33,196 nucleotides of DNA. Origin: a bacterium (GTDB taxonomy: Bacteria; Hydrothermota; DG-26; JAUXAN01). Location of the stretch: the NCBI GenBank assembly GCA_030619885.1, contig JAUXAN010000028.1:1-33196 (forward strand), written 5' to 3'. Below the pieces are notes generated by a model. That model had not been told where the DNA came from. It did not search any database and saw nothing but the letters and a program-made list of their open reading frames with translations. Numbering within the stretch: position 1 is the first letter of the stretch; every line of letters begins with the position of its first letter. Below are positions 19,783-27,400 of the stretch, in pieces. Position numbers and translations under genes: made by a program.

Positions 19783-20447
19783 CGAGTGCAATCATAGTCG
19801 CTGCTGGTAGGGGTAGGAGGATTGGAAAGGAGAAGCAATGGATTGAACTTGCGGGCAAATCAGTCATCCTACACTCGTTGGAAAAGTTCGAATCCCTTGC
19901 ATCGGTAGATGAAATAGTATTCGTGGTACCGAAGGCTCGGATGGATTATGCAAAAACCCTTGCAAGAAGATTGAAGAAAGTAAGAAAGATTATACCTGGT
20001 GGGGAACGAAGGATGGATTCTGTCTATGAGGGGGTGAAGGTTTCAAAGGGTGATATAGTAGTAATACATGATGGTGCGAGACCATTTGTAGACAAAGAAG
20101 TGATTGAGAAAGGGATAGATTTATGCAAAGAATATGATGCGGTGATTACATCCGTTCCAGCGACGGATACGGTGAAGTATGTAGAGGATAATTTTGTTCA
20201 CCATACGATACCAAGAGAAAAAGTGTGGCTTGCTCATACACCCCAGTTCTTCAAAAGAAAACTTCTCATTGAAGCGTATGAAAAGTTTCACAGCTTTGAT
20301 GCTACAGATGAATCGTCTCTTGTTGAAAAATGCGGTGTGAGAGTGAAAGTTTTAAAAGATAGTTATAGGAACATAAAACTTACAACAGAAAAAGATATGG
20401 CTTTTGCAGAGGCAATTCTAATAGAGTATGGACAGGACAAGGGATAA
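19779..20447 (+). CDS. ispD: 2-C-methyl-D-erythritol 4-phosphate cytidylyltransferase
   Basis: 222 residues from GTG 19779, which overlaps the TGA of the preceding gene. N-terminal SAIIVAAGRGRRIGKEKQW is the CTP-binding loop; PGGERRMDSVYEGV, VVIHDGARPFVD, PATDTVK and HTPQFFK are family signatures. It makes CDP-ME in the MEP isoprenoid pathway. No ispF follows; instead the ADP-ribosylglycohydrolase gene overlaps the 3' end by 20 bp. Confidence 0.95.
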   Translation: MTSAIIVAAGRGRRIGKEKQWIELAGKSVILHSLEKFESLASVDEIVFVVPKARMDYAKTLARRLKKVRKIIPGGERRMDSVYEGVKVSKGDIVVIHDGARPFVDKEVIEKGIDLCKEYDAVITSVPATDTVKYVEDNFVHHTIPREKVWLAHTPQFFKRKLLIEAYEKFHSFDATDESSLVEKCGVRVKVLKDSYRNIKLTTEKDMAFAEAILIEYGQDKG

Positions 20448-21720
20448 GGCACAGGGTTGTATTGTTGGTGCGGCAATAGGCGATGCGCTGGGAATGCCTG
20501 CAGAATTTGTGACTGAGAGCGACCTGAAGCGGCACTACGGTAGGATAGAAAAATTTGAATCTCCTCTTTCAACCCACCCACTCAAAAACCTTAAACCAGG
20601 GCAGTGGACAGACGATACCCAACTGCTACTCCTCGCCGCTGACTCACTCATCGATTCCAAGGGGTTTAACATCTATGATTTTTCAGAACGACTCGGGGGG
20701 TGGTGGAGAAGATGTGAAAAGGAGAAAGGGTATAACAGGTATGCGAGTATGAACACCCTCAATGCTTGCAAAGCCTTATATCACGGCACCGACCCATATA
20801 AATCGGGTTCCAGATCCATCGAAAGCGATTCTGTGGTCAGATCTATACCAACCGGTGTCTGGTATTATAGAAGTATAGAGGATGTTGTGAAATATTCGAG
20901 ACTCTCTTCTGTTCCTACCCATAACAGTGAAGAAACCAAAGAAGCCTGCCTTGCACTTGCCCTTACCTGTACCTATCTTCTGAATGATTTAAAATCAGAG
21001 GAAGCGTTGAAGAGTTGTTTGAATTACCTATCACATAAGAAACTGATAAAGAGATTTAATATAGTTATAGATATGCAGGAAGAAGAACCCGAGAGGGTTA
21101 AGAATGTTTTGGGACTTGGCACATCTGTCATGGAGGTGGTCCCGTTCGCTTTTTACTCGTTTCTTCACTCACCAGATAATTTTGAAGATATAGTATTGAC
21201 AGCAGTCAATGCATCAGGTGACACAGATACACTTGGTGCGATTGCAGGCGCTTTGGGTGGTGCATACCTCGGTATTAGTAAAATTCCACCCGATTTCCTT
21301 GAACAGTTAGAAGCGATAAATCTTTTGAAGAACAAAGCAGTAGAATTGATAGAGAAATCCAATTATTTGAAGATAGATTTCGATTTGAAAGTCATAAAAC
21401 CTGAAGACTTGAGTATTACTGATAGATTCGATAACGAACAAGAGAAGACCAAAAAAATCATCGAAATATTAGAAAAGGAGATGAAGAAAGAGATATTGAA
21501 GGAAAACCCATCAATCCAATATTTAGGACTGGAACTTGGTAAAGAACTGGTTCATCATTATAAAGATGCTACATTAGGAGATATAGAAGTTTGTTCGATG
21601 TTGAAGATAAAAGGTAAAAAGTCTGCATTTTATGTAAGGATCGAAGATAGAGGAAGAGCATCGATGCGATTCCATAGAGCAATTGTTAAGTTCAGGGATC
21701 GTATAGAAGGAAAAGAGTGA
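20428..21720 (+). CDS. ADP-ribosylglycohydrolase family protein with C-terminal extension
   Basis: 430 residues. DraG/ARH fold: AAIGDALGMPAEF (15-27), metal ligands in WTDDTQ (60-65) and ASGDTDTLGAIAGA (262-275). Enzymes of this family remove ADP-ribose from proteins or other acceptors using two Mg/Mn ions. The catalytic part ends near 310; the remaining 120 residues (with ENPSIQYLGLELGKELVHHY and KKSAFYVRIEDRGRASM) are not part of the usual fold and are not recognised. It overlaps ispD and der on both sides, so it is co-translated with housekeeping genes. Its target is unknown. Confidence 0.9.
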   Translation: MDRTRDKAQGCIVGAAIGDALGMPAEFVTESDLKRHYGRIEKFESPLSTHPLKNLKPGQWTDDTQLLLLAADSLIDSKGFNIYDFSERLGGWWRRCEKEKGYNRYASMNTLNACKALYHGTDPYKSGSRSIESDSVVRSIPTGVWYYRSIEDVVKYSRLSSVPTHNSEETKEACLALALTCTYLLNDLKSEEALKSCLNYLSHKKLIKRFNIVIDMQEEEPERVKNVLGLGTSVMEVVPFAFYSFLHSPDNFEDIVLTAVNASGDTDTLGAIAGALGGAYLGISKIPPDFLEQLEAINLLKNKAVELIEKSNYLKIDFDLKVIKPEDLSITDRFDNEQEKTKKIIEILEKEMKKEILKENPSIQYLGLELGKELVHHYKDATLGDIEVCSMLKIKGKKSAFYVRIEDRGRASMRFHRAIVKFRDRIEGKE

Positions 21721-23655: not shown

Positions 23656-26600
23656 GTGATTTTAAAATTAGTTGAGACAGCCAGAGATGTTGGATATGAT
23701 GTGAAAGATCTTTCAAATGAGGTTTATAGTCTGGCATCCGAAGGAAAGGCCTACCTTTACTCAATTGAAGATATTGCTACAAGGACAAAAGAACAGTCTG
23801 ATAAACTCTTTGCGCTCGAGAAGACGATTACCAATCTCTTCGCCTCCATTCAGGTCGTTATCGAGGCGTGTGACCAGGCATTTGAGTCTCAAAGAGGGAT
23901 GAGCGAGATATTGACAAAAGGTTTGAACTCGATAGAGGATTCGATAAAGCTGACGCAAGTTGTAGCTACAACTGTTACAAAAACCTCAACAGGACTTGCT
24001 GAATTGAACGAAACCGCATCTAAGATAGTCAATATAATCAACTCGATAGTCGATATTTCAGAACTTTCTGAATCGGTTGCCAGAAATGCCGAAATAAAGG
24101 CGTTTCATGCCGGGGAACACGGGAGAGGATTTGAGGTTGTGGCAAAGGAACTCGCCTTGCTTGCCAGAAAATCAAAGAATGAGGCAGAGAATGTTCCTGT
24201 GACTATTGACAAGATTAAAACGCAGGTCAACGAGTTGGTAGGGGCTACGACCGAAATGAGGGAGAATCTCAAAAGAGTGAATGAGGATGCTAACACCATA
24301 GGAACTAACCTCTCAGAAATCCAGAAACTTGTGAAAGAGTCGAAAGGAAGATTTGAAGGAGTTAAAGAAGATTTAAAGGAACAGATAGAGTCAAAAGAAA
24401 AACTGGCATCCTTTAAAGAAGATCTCTATTACTTTCAGGAGCATATATCTATAATGACTGAAATGGCAAGCCTTGTCCAAAGTTCACAAAAAGCAATCTA
24501 TGATATTCTCAGTTCAACACACGAGAATTTGAATACTATGATCGATTCACTCCTTAACTCAATGTCTCAATCTACAGATGAAATGATAGTTGGAAACTCG
24601 AATTTTTTAATAGAATCCTCCACCCAGTTCCGTTATCAATTTGAGAATTCAGCCTTTTCGTTAAAACAACTGAATGATACATCCATCAATATCTCCAGTG
24701 AGATAAATAAAGAGAAAGCACTGGTGGAGAATATAAAAAAAGAGATAGAAGTCGTAAACCGTGCAACCATTTCTATAGATGAGAAGCACGGAAGTATTGG
24801 AGGTTCACTAAAAGATACTTTGAATGCTGTTAAGAAGATCTCAGCATCTATGAACGATATGAGGATACTTCTCGATGGTATAAAAGAGAGGCTGCAAAAT
24901 TTTTTGGGTTATCTGTCTCAGATGAACGTAGAGTTGAAGGATATTCGCTGGACAAAAGAGAGAATTGGGAAATTTGGAGAGAGTACGAGGCTTCTTTCTC
25001 TATATGGTGCGATTGAAGCTGCAAGGTCAGGAGAGTTTGAGAAAGACTTGAATGTGATAGTAAATCTAATAAGGGAACTATCCTCAAAATCGAATATTTC
25101 GATAGCTGAAATCTCAAAACTGGTAGATGAAACGAGGTCGAATGTAGTTGATGTTTTGAAACTGACTCAAGAGAGTTTGACCGCAGCTGATAAAGGTATT
25201 GGTAGTGTATCCAAGGTGGATACCTTTATTCCCCAAATAGAGACCTCAATCCAGAGTTTACAACTCGTTGTGGAAGAAATTAAACGGTCAATTGTTACAC
25301 AGAGCGGTCATATACAGAACCTCCTTAGTCTCAATGCTGAGCTATCGCAGTCGATTGAAAAGACGGAAACCGTTAATCGCAATATGATGATTTCATTAAA
25401 ATCCCAGTTGTCAAGATTTGATGAATCTTCATCAAAATTTGACGAGATTAACGAGAAATTGAAACCTATCAGAAACATCGTGACTTCAGTGAAAAGACCC
25501 AAAATAAAGTATAGGACTGAGCTCCCTTCCAATCCTACTACCTTCGACCCCAGTTATTCTGGCGATGCCACCTCGAATGAGGTAATTAGAAATATAGTGG
25601 AAGGTCTGGTTGAGTTTGGTTACGATACTAAACCCATTCCTGCAATAGCTTATGAGTGGAACATCTCCCCCGATGGTCTAAACTGGACTTTTAAGATTAG
25701 AAAAGGTGTAAAATTCCATAATGGGAAGGAATTGAAGGCAGAAGATGTGAAGTATTCTATGGAGAGGGCACTCAAAGGTCCGAATGCCTATTTCTTCGAT
25801 ATGATAGAAGGTTCACAGGATTTTATTAAGAGTACGACCGAGAAGTTGGCGGGTGTGAGGGTTATAGATGATTACACGATTGAGTTCAGACTCGAAAGGC
25901 CATATACGCCCTTTCTCTCAAATCTTGCTACTGCGGTAGGTGGGATAATACCAAAAGGTGGGCCTGAAGAATCTGATTTCTCTATCCGTCCAATCGGTGC
26001 AGGCCCATTTGTGGTAAAAGAATGGATTGCCGATGAACGGATAGTTCTTGAAGCTTTTGATGATTATTACAAGGGACATCCTTATATAGATGAAATTCAT
26101 TACTTGATACGGAATGAGAAAAAGAGAGCGGTTGACCTATTTAAAAGTAGAGAATTGGAACATATCATACTTTCAGGAGAAGATTTTGAAGAAATCAGTC
26201 GAGACCCAAAGTATAAACCATATATCACTTCAAATCCAGAATTGAATGTGCAGTATTTGGGATTTAACTGTACGAAAGCACCATTTTCTAACCGGCTCGT
26301 GAGAAAAGCACTCAATTATGCCCTTGATAAGGAAAATTATGTCAGAACATTACTGAAAAGTAGCGGAATAGCAGCAAAAGGAATCTTTCCGCCTTCCCTT
26401 GAGGCATACAATCCTGATATAAGAGGTTATCCGTACGACCCTGCCCTTGCTAAAGAACTCCTGCGGAAAGCAGGTTATGAGAATAGACTTCCGGGTACCT
26501 ACAGACTGGATGTTAGGGACGATAAGTCTTATATAGAGAGAGCAGAATTTATCAAAAAATATTTTGAAAAGGTTGGGGTCGCAATCGAGATTAATCCTGT

Positions 26601-26976
26601 TTCGTGGAAGGAATTGATCCATCTCACTCGTACTGGTGAGAGTTCCCTGTTTATAATAGGATGGGCTTCTGACAACGGTGACCCTGATAACTTCCTTTAC
26701 CCACTATTTCATTCGAGCAACTGGGGAGAGCCTGGAAACTCTTCTTTTTATAAAAATGAGCAAGTGGATCGTCTTATAATCGAGGCGATGGAAGTCAAGA
26801 GTCCCACCCATAGGATTCGTTTATATCAGAGGATAGAAGAGAAAATAGTCGATGATGCACCATGGATATTTCTTGATCACGGGCTCAGTTCCCTCTGTTA
26901 CCAACCCTATGTCCATGGTCTCAGACTCCACCCGCTTGGTCACATTAAAATTGGGGATATCTGGTTGGAGGTATGA
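23656..26976 (+). CDS. Fusion of two chemoreceptor signalling regions with a family-5 solute-binding domain
   Basis: 1106 residues. Residues 1-610 are a long coiled coil with two methyl-accepting-type signalling hairpins: tip 1 about 133-175 (AGEHGRGFEVVAKELALLAR) and tip 2 about 440-478 (STRLLSLYGAIEAARSGEFE). Both depart from the canonical QTNLLALNAAIEAARAGE tip, the first more strongly. From about 618 a SBP_bac_5 (peptide/nickel/oligopeptide-binding) domain runs to the end (NEVIRNIVEGLVEFGYDTKP, WTFKIRKGVKFHNG, LKAEDVKYSMERAL, VRKALNYALDKENYV, FIIGWASDNGDPDNFLYPLF). No signal peptide or membrane span is seen, so the whole protein looks cytosolic, which is odd for this ligand domain. GTG 23656 is the only early start and lacks a clear ribosome site; an in-frame stop lies at 23644. 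A cheW gene follows four bases later. Confidence 0.85.
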   Translation: MILKLVETARDVGYDVKDLSNEVYSLASEGKAYLYSIEDIATRTKEQSDKLFALEKTITNLFASIQVVIEACDQAFESQRGMSEILTKGLNSIEDSIKLTQVVATTVTKTSTGLAELNETASKIVNIINSIVDISELSESVARNAEIKAFHAGEHGRGFEVVAKELALLARKSKNEAENVPVTIDKIKTQVNELVGATTEMRENLKRVNEDANTIGTNLSEIQKLVKESKGRFEGVKEDLKEQIESKEKLASFKEDLYYFQEHISIMTEMASLVQSSQKAIYDILSSTHENLNTMIDSLLNSMSQSTDEMIVGNSNFLIESSTQFRYQFENSAFSLKQLNDTSINISSEINKEKALVENIKKEIEVVNRATISIDEKHGSIGGSLKDTLNAVKKISASMNDMRILLDGIKERLQNFLGYLSQMNVELKDIRWTKERIGKFGESTRLLSLYGAIEAARSGEFEKDLNVIVNLIRELSSKSNISIAEISKLVDETRSNVVDVLKLTQESLTAADKGIGSVSKVDTFIPQIETSIQSLQLVVEEIKRSIVTQSGHIQNLLSLNAELSQSIEKTETVNRNMMISLKSQLSRFDESSSKFDEINEKLKPIRNIVTSVKRPKIKYRTELPSNPTTFDPSYSGDATSNEVIRNIVEGLVEFGYDTKPIPAIAYEWNISPDGLNWTFKIRKGVKFHNGKELKAEDVKYSMERALKGPNAYFFDMIEGSQDFIKSTTEKLAGVRVIDDYTIEFRLERPYTPFLSNLATAVGGIIPKGGPEESDFSIRPIGAGPFVVKEWIADERIVLEAFDDYYKGHPYIDEIHYLIRNEKKRAVDLFKSRELEHIILSGEDFEEISRDPKYKPYITSNPELNVQYLGFNCTKAPFSNRLVRKALNYALDKENYVRTLLKSSGIAAKGIFPPSLEAYNPDIRGYPYDPALAKELLRKAGYENRLPGTYRLDVRDDKSYIERAEFIKKYFEKVGVAIEINPVSWKELIHLTRTGESSLFIIGWASDNGDPDNFLYPLFHSSNWGEPGNSSFYKNEQVDRLIIEAMEVKSPTHRIRLYQRIEEKIVDDAPWIFLDHGLSSLCYQPYVHGLRLHPLGHIKIGDIWLEV

Positions 26977-26980
26977 GATT

Positions 26981-27400
26981 ATGAAAAAAAGGGTCGTCAC
27001 TTTTAAAGTTGGTGAAGACGAATTTTGCATCGAGATAGACAGGGTAAAAGAGATTCAGGGGATCGTTGATATAGTGAGAATACCAAAGTCTCCACACTTT
27101 ATTGAGGGCATAATAAATTTGAGGGGAAATGTCGTGCCGATAATAAATTTGAGAAAAAGGTTTGGATTTTCGCCAAAACCCTTTGATGAGGATACAGGGA
27201 TTTTAATGATAGAAACAAAGGAAAAAGTCGTCGGGTTTATAGCCGACAAGGTGATTGGAATATTTGATACGACAGTTGATAAAATTGAGAAGCCACCCGC
27301 TGTTATTTCGGAAGACCTTTTTAGAGGAGCAGGGGAGGTAAATGGAAAGTTAATATTTCTATTAGATATTGAAAAGATATTAAAAATACGCGAACACTAA
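26981..27400 (+). CDS. cheW: Chemotaxis coupling protein CheW
   Basis: 139 residues from ATG 26981, with GGAGGT at 26967-26972. CheW fold: VTFKVGEDEFCIEIDRVKEI, IPKSPHFIEGIINLRGNVVPI, INLRKRFGF, ending KLIFLLDIEKIL. It links receptors to the CheA kinase. It follows the receptor fusion by four bases and is clearly co-transcribed. No cheA, cheY or motility gene is present here. It converges with the glycosyltransferase gene; the two stops overlap by four bases. Confidence 0.94.
   Translation: MKKRVVTFKVGEDEFCIEIDRVKEIQGIVDIVRIPKSPHFIEGIINLRGNVVPIINLRKRFGFSPKPFDEDTGILMIETKEKVVGFIADKVIGIFDTTVDKIEKPPAVISEDLFRGAGEVNGKLIFLLDIEKILKIREH

Follow-up and report, generated by a model that had tools for sequence, protein, structure and literature searches.

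What can a solute-binding domain contribute to a chemoreceptor when both lie inside the cell? SBP_bac_5 domains normally work outside the membrane, and the proteins that carry them normally feed ABC importers. In the DNA analysed here (a stretch of 33,196 nucleotides from a Hydrothermota bacterium, contig JAUXAN010000028.1, referred to as the window), a single gene joins two chemoreceptor (MCP) signalling hairpins to such a domain and is followed by cheW. The encoded fusion is a divergent but conserved member of the chemoreceptor family, cytosolic, with a double hairpin and a fused solute-binding sensor.

Gene and Domain Layout

An earlier note on this locus had described two MCP hairpins with altered tips, a complete SBP_bac_5 domain and a cheW gene four bases further on, and this description proved exact by reading frame, Pfam and sequence (Table 1). 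The fusion frame is uninterrupted, and its upstream extension stays open for three codons only. Pfam matched MCPsignal in two stretches (E 4.7e-29), both of which exceeded the curated cut-off in a whole-genome scan, and placed SBP_bac_5 at residues 659-1024, where the match spans 1-367 of the 368 profile positions (E 1.8e-93). The in-frame ATG of cheW lies four bases past the TGA of the fusion, with a GGAGG at 26967-26971.

Table 1. Features of the fusion gene and the adjacent cheW, in window positions.
Feature	Position	Strand	Evidence
MCP-SBP_bac_5 fusion gene, 1106 aa, GTG start	23656..26976	+	ORF/translation, Pfam, homologues
Hairpin 1, aa 2-302	23659..24561	+	AlphaFold2 helices 2-151 and 153-302; MCPsignal match 23965-24405
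Tip 1, aa 143-162, RNAEIKAFHAGEHGRGFEVV	24082..24141	+	Column counts, 36 sequences
Turn between hairpins (predicted), aa 303-307	24562..24576	+	AlphaFold2; non-heptad length variation; same place in second model
Hairpin 2, aa 308-610	24577..25485	+	AlphaFold2 helices 308-457 and 459-610; MCPsignal match 24892-25323
Tip 2, aa 446-468, LLSLYGAIEAARSGEFEKDLNVI	24991..25059	+	Column counts, 36 sequences
SBP_bac_5 domain, aa 618-1106	25507..26973	+	Pfam; solved-structure sequence matches; fold matches, TM-score up to 0.91 on target
Asp1006, counterpart of DppA ligand-amine Asp	26671..26673	+	Alignment to 1dpp; 35/36 sequences; literature
cheW, 139 aa	26981..27400	+	Sequence; Pfam CheW E 1.1e-36

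Cytosolic Location and Reality of the Join

The highest 19-residue Kyte-Doolittle mean of the fusion protein is 1.36, and the protein therefore has no visible membrane span and no visible signal peptide. A membrane span was likewise not found in 35 fusion homologues, among which the highest mean was 1.68, and neither the window protein nor these homologues showed an export signal or lipobox. The earlier statement that both signal peptide and span are missing is upheld by these hydropathy values, and the protein appears, as far as its sequence can tell, to sit wholly in the cytosol; this location and the pairing with cheW are supported by the homologous loci as well.

Two findings had been named as capable of overturning this picture, namely a membrane sensor encoded upstream and two genes joined by misassembly. 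The former was looked for in all frames and was absent: no receptor-like frame was found in the 630 bp 5′ of the fusion, where all three frames contain stops and nothing appears to be coding, and a missed sensor was ruled out. Promoter-like sites upstream of the fusion numbered 8, against 3.0 in shuffles. The latter fails because the join recurs, co-linear, in dozens of divergent and independent genomes, which rules out an assembly join or frameshift. No evidence was found for reading the gene as an artefact (frameshift, missed start or assembly join), the only points to record being the GTG start and the differing lengths of the homologue N-termini, and with the recurrence and the lack of upstream coding sequence against it we give this explanation practically no weight.

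Homologues and Distribution

A co-linear fusion was tallied from the search listing in 46 of the 150 genomes searched, the genome of the window included, and in 10/10 genomes of a second, Edwardsbacteria-type phylum. In named MAG records it occurs at 36 loci, most of them labelled WOR-3, Stahlbacteria, TA06, Cloacimonadota or Edwardsbacteria. Identity ranges over 24-35% across the genomes searched, and in the family alignment it is 24-33% relative to the window protein. The contigs of the named records were scanned with tip-1 patterns as query and the best 80 of 467 relatives were kept, so that MCP-SBP_bac_5 fusions with ordinary tips could have been missed elsewhere. No published description of this architecture was found in the open-licence literature.

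In a tree with 21 standalone SBPs of these genomes, a well-supported branch (98/96) separated the fused SBP domains from the standalone ones, and a single clade of this kind fits a single fusion event. Most standalone SBPs whose start is clear carry a hydrophobic or lipobox-like leader at the N-terminus, as judged by eye. Some standalone SBP_bac_5 genes adjoin membrane HAMP-HisKA sensor kinases (L157 1215-4684; L156 1383-5817; L161 3-4300), and these genes include the standalone SBP most closely related to the fused domain.

Variant forms of the fusion were also observed. A second paralogue in Stahlbacteria-type genomes (L053 5773-8922; L054 11475-14738) keeps the length and the SBP domain without the tip-1 motif, and the gene that follows it encodes a coiled-coil-looking protein. 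A form of 1035-1038 residues (L092 9656-12772; L056 11628-14738; L064 10324-13431) retains the tip-1 core RN[AS]EI[KR]A and has no adjacent che genes.

The SBP_bac_5 Sensor Domain

The SBP part gave its best sequence and fold matches to GbpA, DppA and their relatives, of predicted type II SBP fold. The Asp by which DppA contacts the amino group of its ligand (according to the literature, D436 of the precursor and D408 after maturation) has its counterpart in Asp1006, which is kept. The DppA Arg that binds the carboxylate is not a general feature of the 36 fusion sequences; a free-amine ligand is therefore plausible and a plain dipeptide less certain. Inferred from these residues and without binding data, the most likely ligand would be an amine-bearing small solute of the cytosol. 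That this solute is a peptide, and that its binding drives CheA, are inferences for which there are no binding or kinase data.

The same residues bear on whether the domain still senses at all, or has become a structural or docking part of a protein that is mainly an array scaffold. Frequent loss of the carboxylate-binding Arg, variation of some tips and pocket positions, and one paralogue group that keeps the SBP domain with both tips degenerate or lost would all suit a scaffold; yet the SBP half of the fusion is conserved better than the hairpin half in the family alignment, retains the amine-binding Asp in all but one sequence, and is predicted with its three-domain fold intact, and we consider loss of sensing improbable. 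Fainter still is the possibility that the domain takes solute from, or belongs to, a transporter, and that the fusion reports transport instead of free cytosolic solute. Importers are the usual clients of SBP_bac_5 proteins, and standalone SBPs adjoin permease genes in relatives (L158), but the genome of the window yielded neither an OppC-type permease nor an SBP_bac_5 besides the fusion, which makes a transport role unlikely, and the fusion has no membrane segment. The lack of an export signal or lipobox further indicates that it does not belong to the periplasmic transport SBPs.

The earlier note had set this intracellular domain against solute-binding domains at large, which normally work outside the membrane and touch receptors as separate proteins. 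The cytosolic location stands, but the arrangement is not unprecedented, since SgrR-type regulators have such a domain; a match of the fusion to the SgrR model was found as well.

Two Different Tips

The receptor dimers of known arrays consist of two identical chains in different positions, one toward the trimer axis and one toward CheW/CheA. Columns of the fusion tips were counted over 36 sequences and are given in Tsr numbering. Tip 1 invariably has R380 and N381 (36/36) and replaces E385 with K or T in every sequence (Glu kept in 0/36), while position 388 is mostly H and G393, G395 and F396 of the GRGF motif are kept. Tip 2 carries Y381 and keeps E385 in 36/36, retains R388 in 28/36 and has lost GRGF. 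Neither tip matches the canonical LNAAIEAARAGExGRGFAVVA, and this deviation is invariant across the family; in the remaining four MCPs of this genome the tips are canonical or nearly so. As both tips miss the canonical motif, the protein is filed as a divergent MCP only through its domain match and che linkage.

In receptor trimers, dimers are locked together by the ionic pair E385-R388′ (PMC8144572). On the column counts, the two tips of the fusion are specialised differently and look partly complementary. Assigning trimer contacts to tip 2, and to tip 1 a position facing CheW/CheA, is an inference without binding data. The earlier guess that the tips are unequal is strengthened by these counts, the two deviating differently and invariantly.

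Overall Shape of the Receptor

AlphaFold2 predicted four arms of about 150 residues for the window protein (mean pLDDT 88.5, pTM 0.70; turn at residues 303-307) and four arms of about 140 residues for a 29%-identical homologue (mean pLDDT 85.5, pTM 0.65; turn at residues 310-312), with the tips at the expected places in both models. The stretch around the turn varies in length among the homologues by 5, 10, 11 or 15 residues, and does not do so in heptads. Together, the mid-chain turn in two models and the non-heptad variation favour an intrachain four-helix bundle over a rod like that of DosM, and formation of a four-helix pseudo-dimer by the two hairpins of one chain is fitting, although inferred from these models, in which the helix packing was not inspected.

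DosM (V. cholerae VC1403) belongs to the F9 class of cytoplasmic arrays and has two tandem signalling domains with a tip at each end of the rod; its partner CheW is a triple-domain protein, and 98% of its homologues have no sensory domain (PMC7534058, PMC9321776). A bridge of this type would make helices 2 and 3 of the fusion continuous, with the tips at opposite ends of the rod, two CheA/CheW baseplates spanned and the SBP domain near the middle. The precedent itself, and the shared presence of two tips on one cytosolic receptor chain, keep such a bridge under consideration. We nevertheless regard it as unlikely, given the turn predicted midway in two divergent members, the non-heptad length variation there, and the presence of a sensory domain, which DosM homologues almost always lack. 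Moreover, the CheW of the fusion is a single domain of 139 residues (about 140 in relatives), and without a triple CheW the fusion is not an F9/DosM system.

Operon and Genome Context

Directly 3′ of the fusion stands cheW in 27 of 35 homologous loci, and all 23 cheW-linked loci with enough downstream sequence share the order fusion-cheW-cheY-cheA-cheC-long TPR-(often DUF4388)-TPR/roadblock. The fusion thus usually heads a full chemosensory operon in the WOR-3 and Edwardsbacteria lineages; in some lineages che neighbours are absent beside it. The pairing with CheW described in the earlier note holds up and is refined by the finding that most relatives have the full cheW-cheY-cheA-cheC-TPR-roadblock operon. 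No CheR or CheB was found in the fusion operon, and an expectation that CheR would be missing from genomes with this operon was wrong, CheR being present elsewhere in 17 of 18 such genomes.

In the genome of the window, the fusion and cheW stand alone ahead of a convergent glycosyltransferase gene, and cheA is unlinked to them. Contig 58 groups genes for CheY, a 514-residue CheA, CheC, TPR, DUF4388 and roadblock proteins, divergent from a pilB-type ATPase gene, and contig 5 carries a conventional set of membrane MCP with CheW, CheA, CheR and CheB. The contig 58 CheA stands nearer to the operon CheAs (35-48% among its best hits) than that of contig 5 does (30-38%); a CheW tree, tried for the contig 58 CheA, did not resolve the partner CheA of the fusion. 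FliG was not found in this genome, which makes a flagellar output unlikely, and several PilB/PilT-type (type IV pilus) ATPases are encoded.

Two further arrangements were observed in this genome. On contig 60 (L058 3933-6972), the gene for a membrane MCP whose tip is canonical is flanked by that of an NMT1-type SBP, anchored by a hydrophobic N-terminus, and by a gene containing cheW; binding protein and receptor are thus also paired as separate proteins in this genome. Within the window (20428-21720), an ADP-ribosylglycohydrolase-family gene overlaps both of its neighbours, which were judged by sequence to be IspD-like and Der-like GTPase genes.

Proposed Mechanism

The explanation that we prefer, and hold to be rather more probable than its failure, is a cytosolic pseudo-dimer receptor whose SBP domain senses an amine solute and which signals through CheW/CheA, the output probably being type IV pilus or gliding polarity. 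Briefly, the two hairpins of one chain would fold back together into a four-helix bundle, a pseudo-dimer with two specialised tips, and the single SBP domain would be mounted at the end of the bundle far from the tips. There it may close on a small cytosolic solute that has a free amine, such as a short peptide, and closure would be transmitted along the bundle to the tips. These would engage CheW and CheA; the contig 58 CheA is the probable one in this genome, a partner that is inferred, as are the direction of the signal and any array. CheW and CheA would then set the phosphorylation of CheY, with CheC as the likely phosphatase, and roadblock, TPR and DUF4388 proteins would probably convey the output to pilus or gliding polarity, an output inferred from the lack of FliG and the many type IV pilus ATPases.

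A more specific version is offered only tentatively, its chance falling somewhat short of even: a dimer contained in one chain with its roles split, tip 2 serving the trimer and tip 1 CheW and the kinase, in which an internalised DppA-type domain samples a cytosolic solute and which serves a chemosensory operon found phylum-wide as its dedicated receptor. A natural one-chain receptor with two invariantly different tips would make the roles of the dimer chains separately testable by mutation. The fusion also carries a hint that internal nutrient sensing steers motility on surfaces, and it assigns a function to a conserved block of genes in candidate lineages that are known chiefly through metagenomes.

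Comparison with Known Systems

Like DosM, the fusion is cytosolic and carries two tandem signalling domains on a single receptor chain; it differs in its C-terminal SBP domain, single-domain CheW, deviating tips and predicted mid-chain turn. With H. pylori TlpD and R. sphaeroides TlpT it shares the absence of a membrane span, the MCP hairpin and the route via CheW/CheA. Cytosolic chemoreceptors of the TlpD/TlpT type have a single hairpin and other sensor domains, and no SBP_bac_5 domain was found on other cytosolic chemoreceptors. Arrays of cytosolic chemoreceptors have been described (PMC3964821).

The transcription factors SgrR and DsvR resemble the fusion in placing a C-terminal SBP_bac_5 domain on a cytosolic signalling protein, but their output is a DNA-binding HTH, whereas that of the fusion is a pair of chemoreceptor hairpins. 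The periplasmic proteins DppA, GbpA and OppA are its closest likenesses in sequence and fold, down to the ligand-amine Asp; unlike them, the fusion has no signal peptide and no permease partner in its genome, is joined to a receptor and does not keep the carboxylate Arg as a rule. In SBP-activated membrane chemoreceptors, such as E. coli Tar with maltose-binding protein, the SBP gives the MCP its ligand recognition (PMC9602780). Those receptors span the membrane and meet their SBP as a separate protein on its outer side, whereas here the SBP is part of the same chain and no membrane is spanned; the fusion also extends the cytosolic chemoreceptors by a solute-binding sensor.
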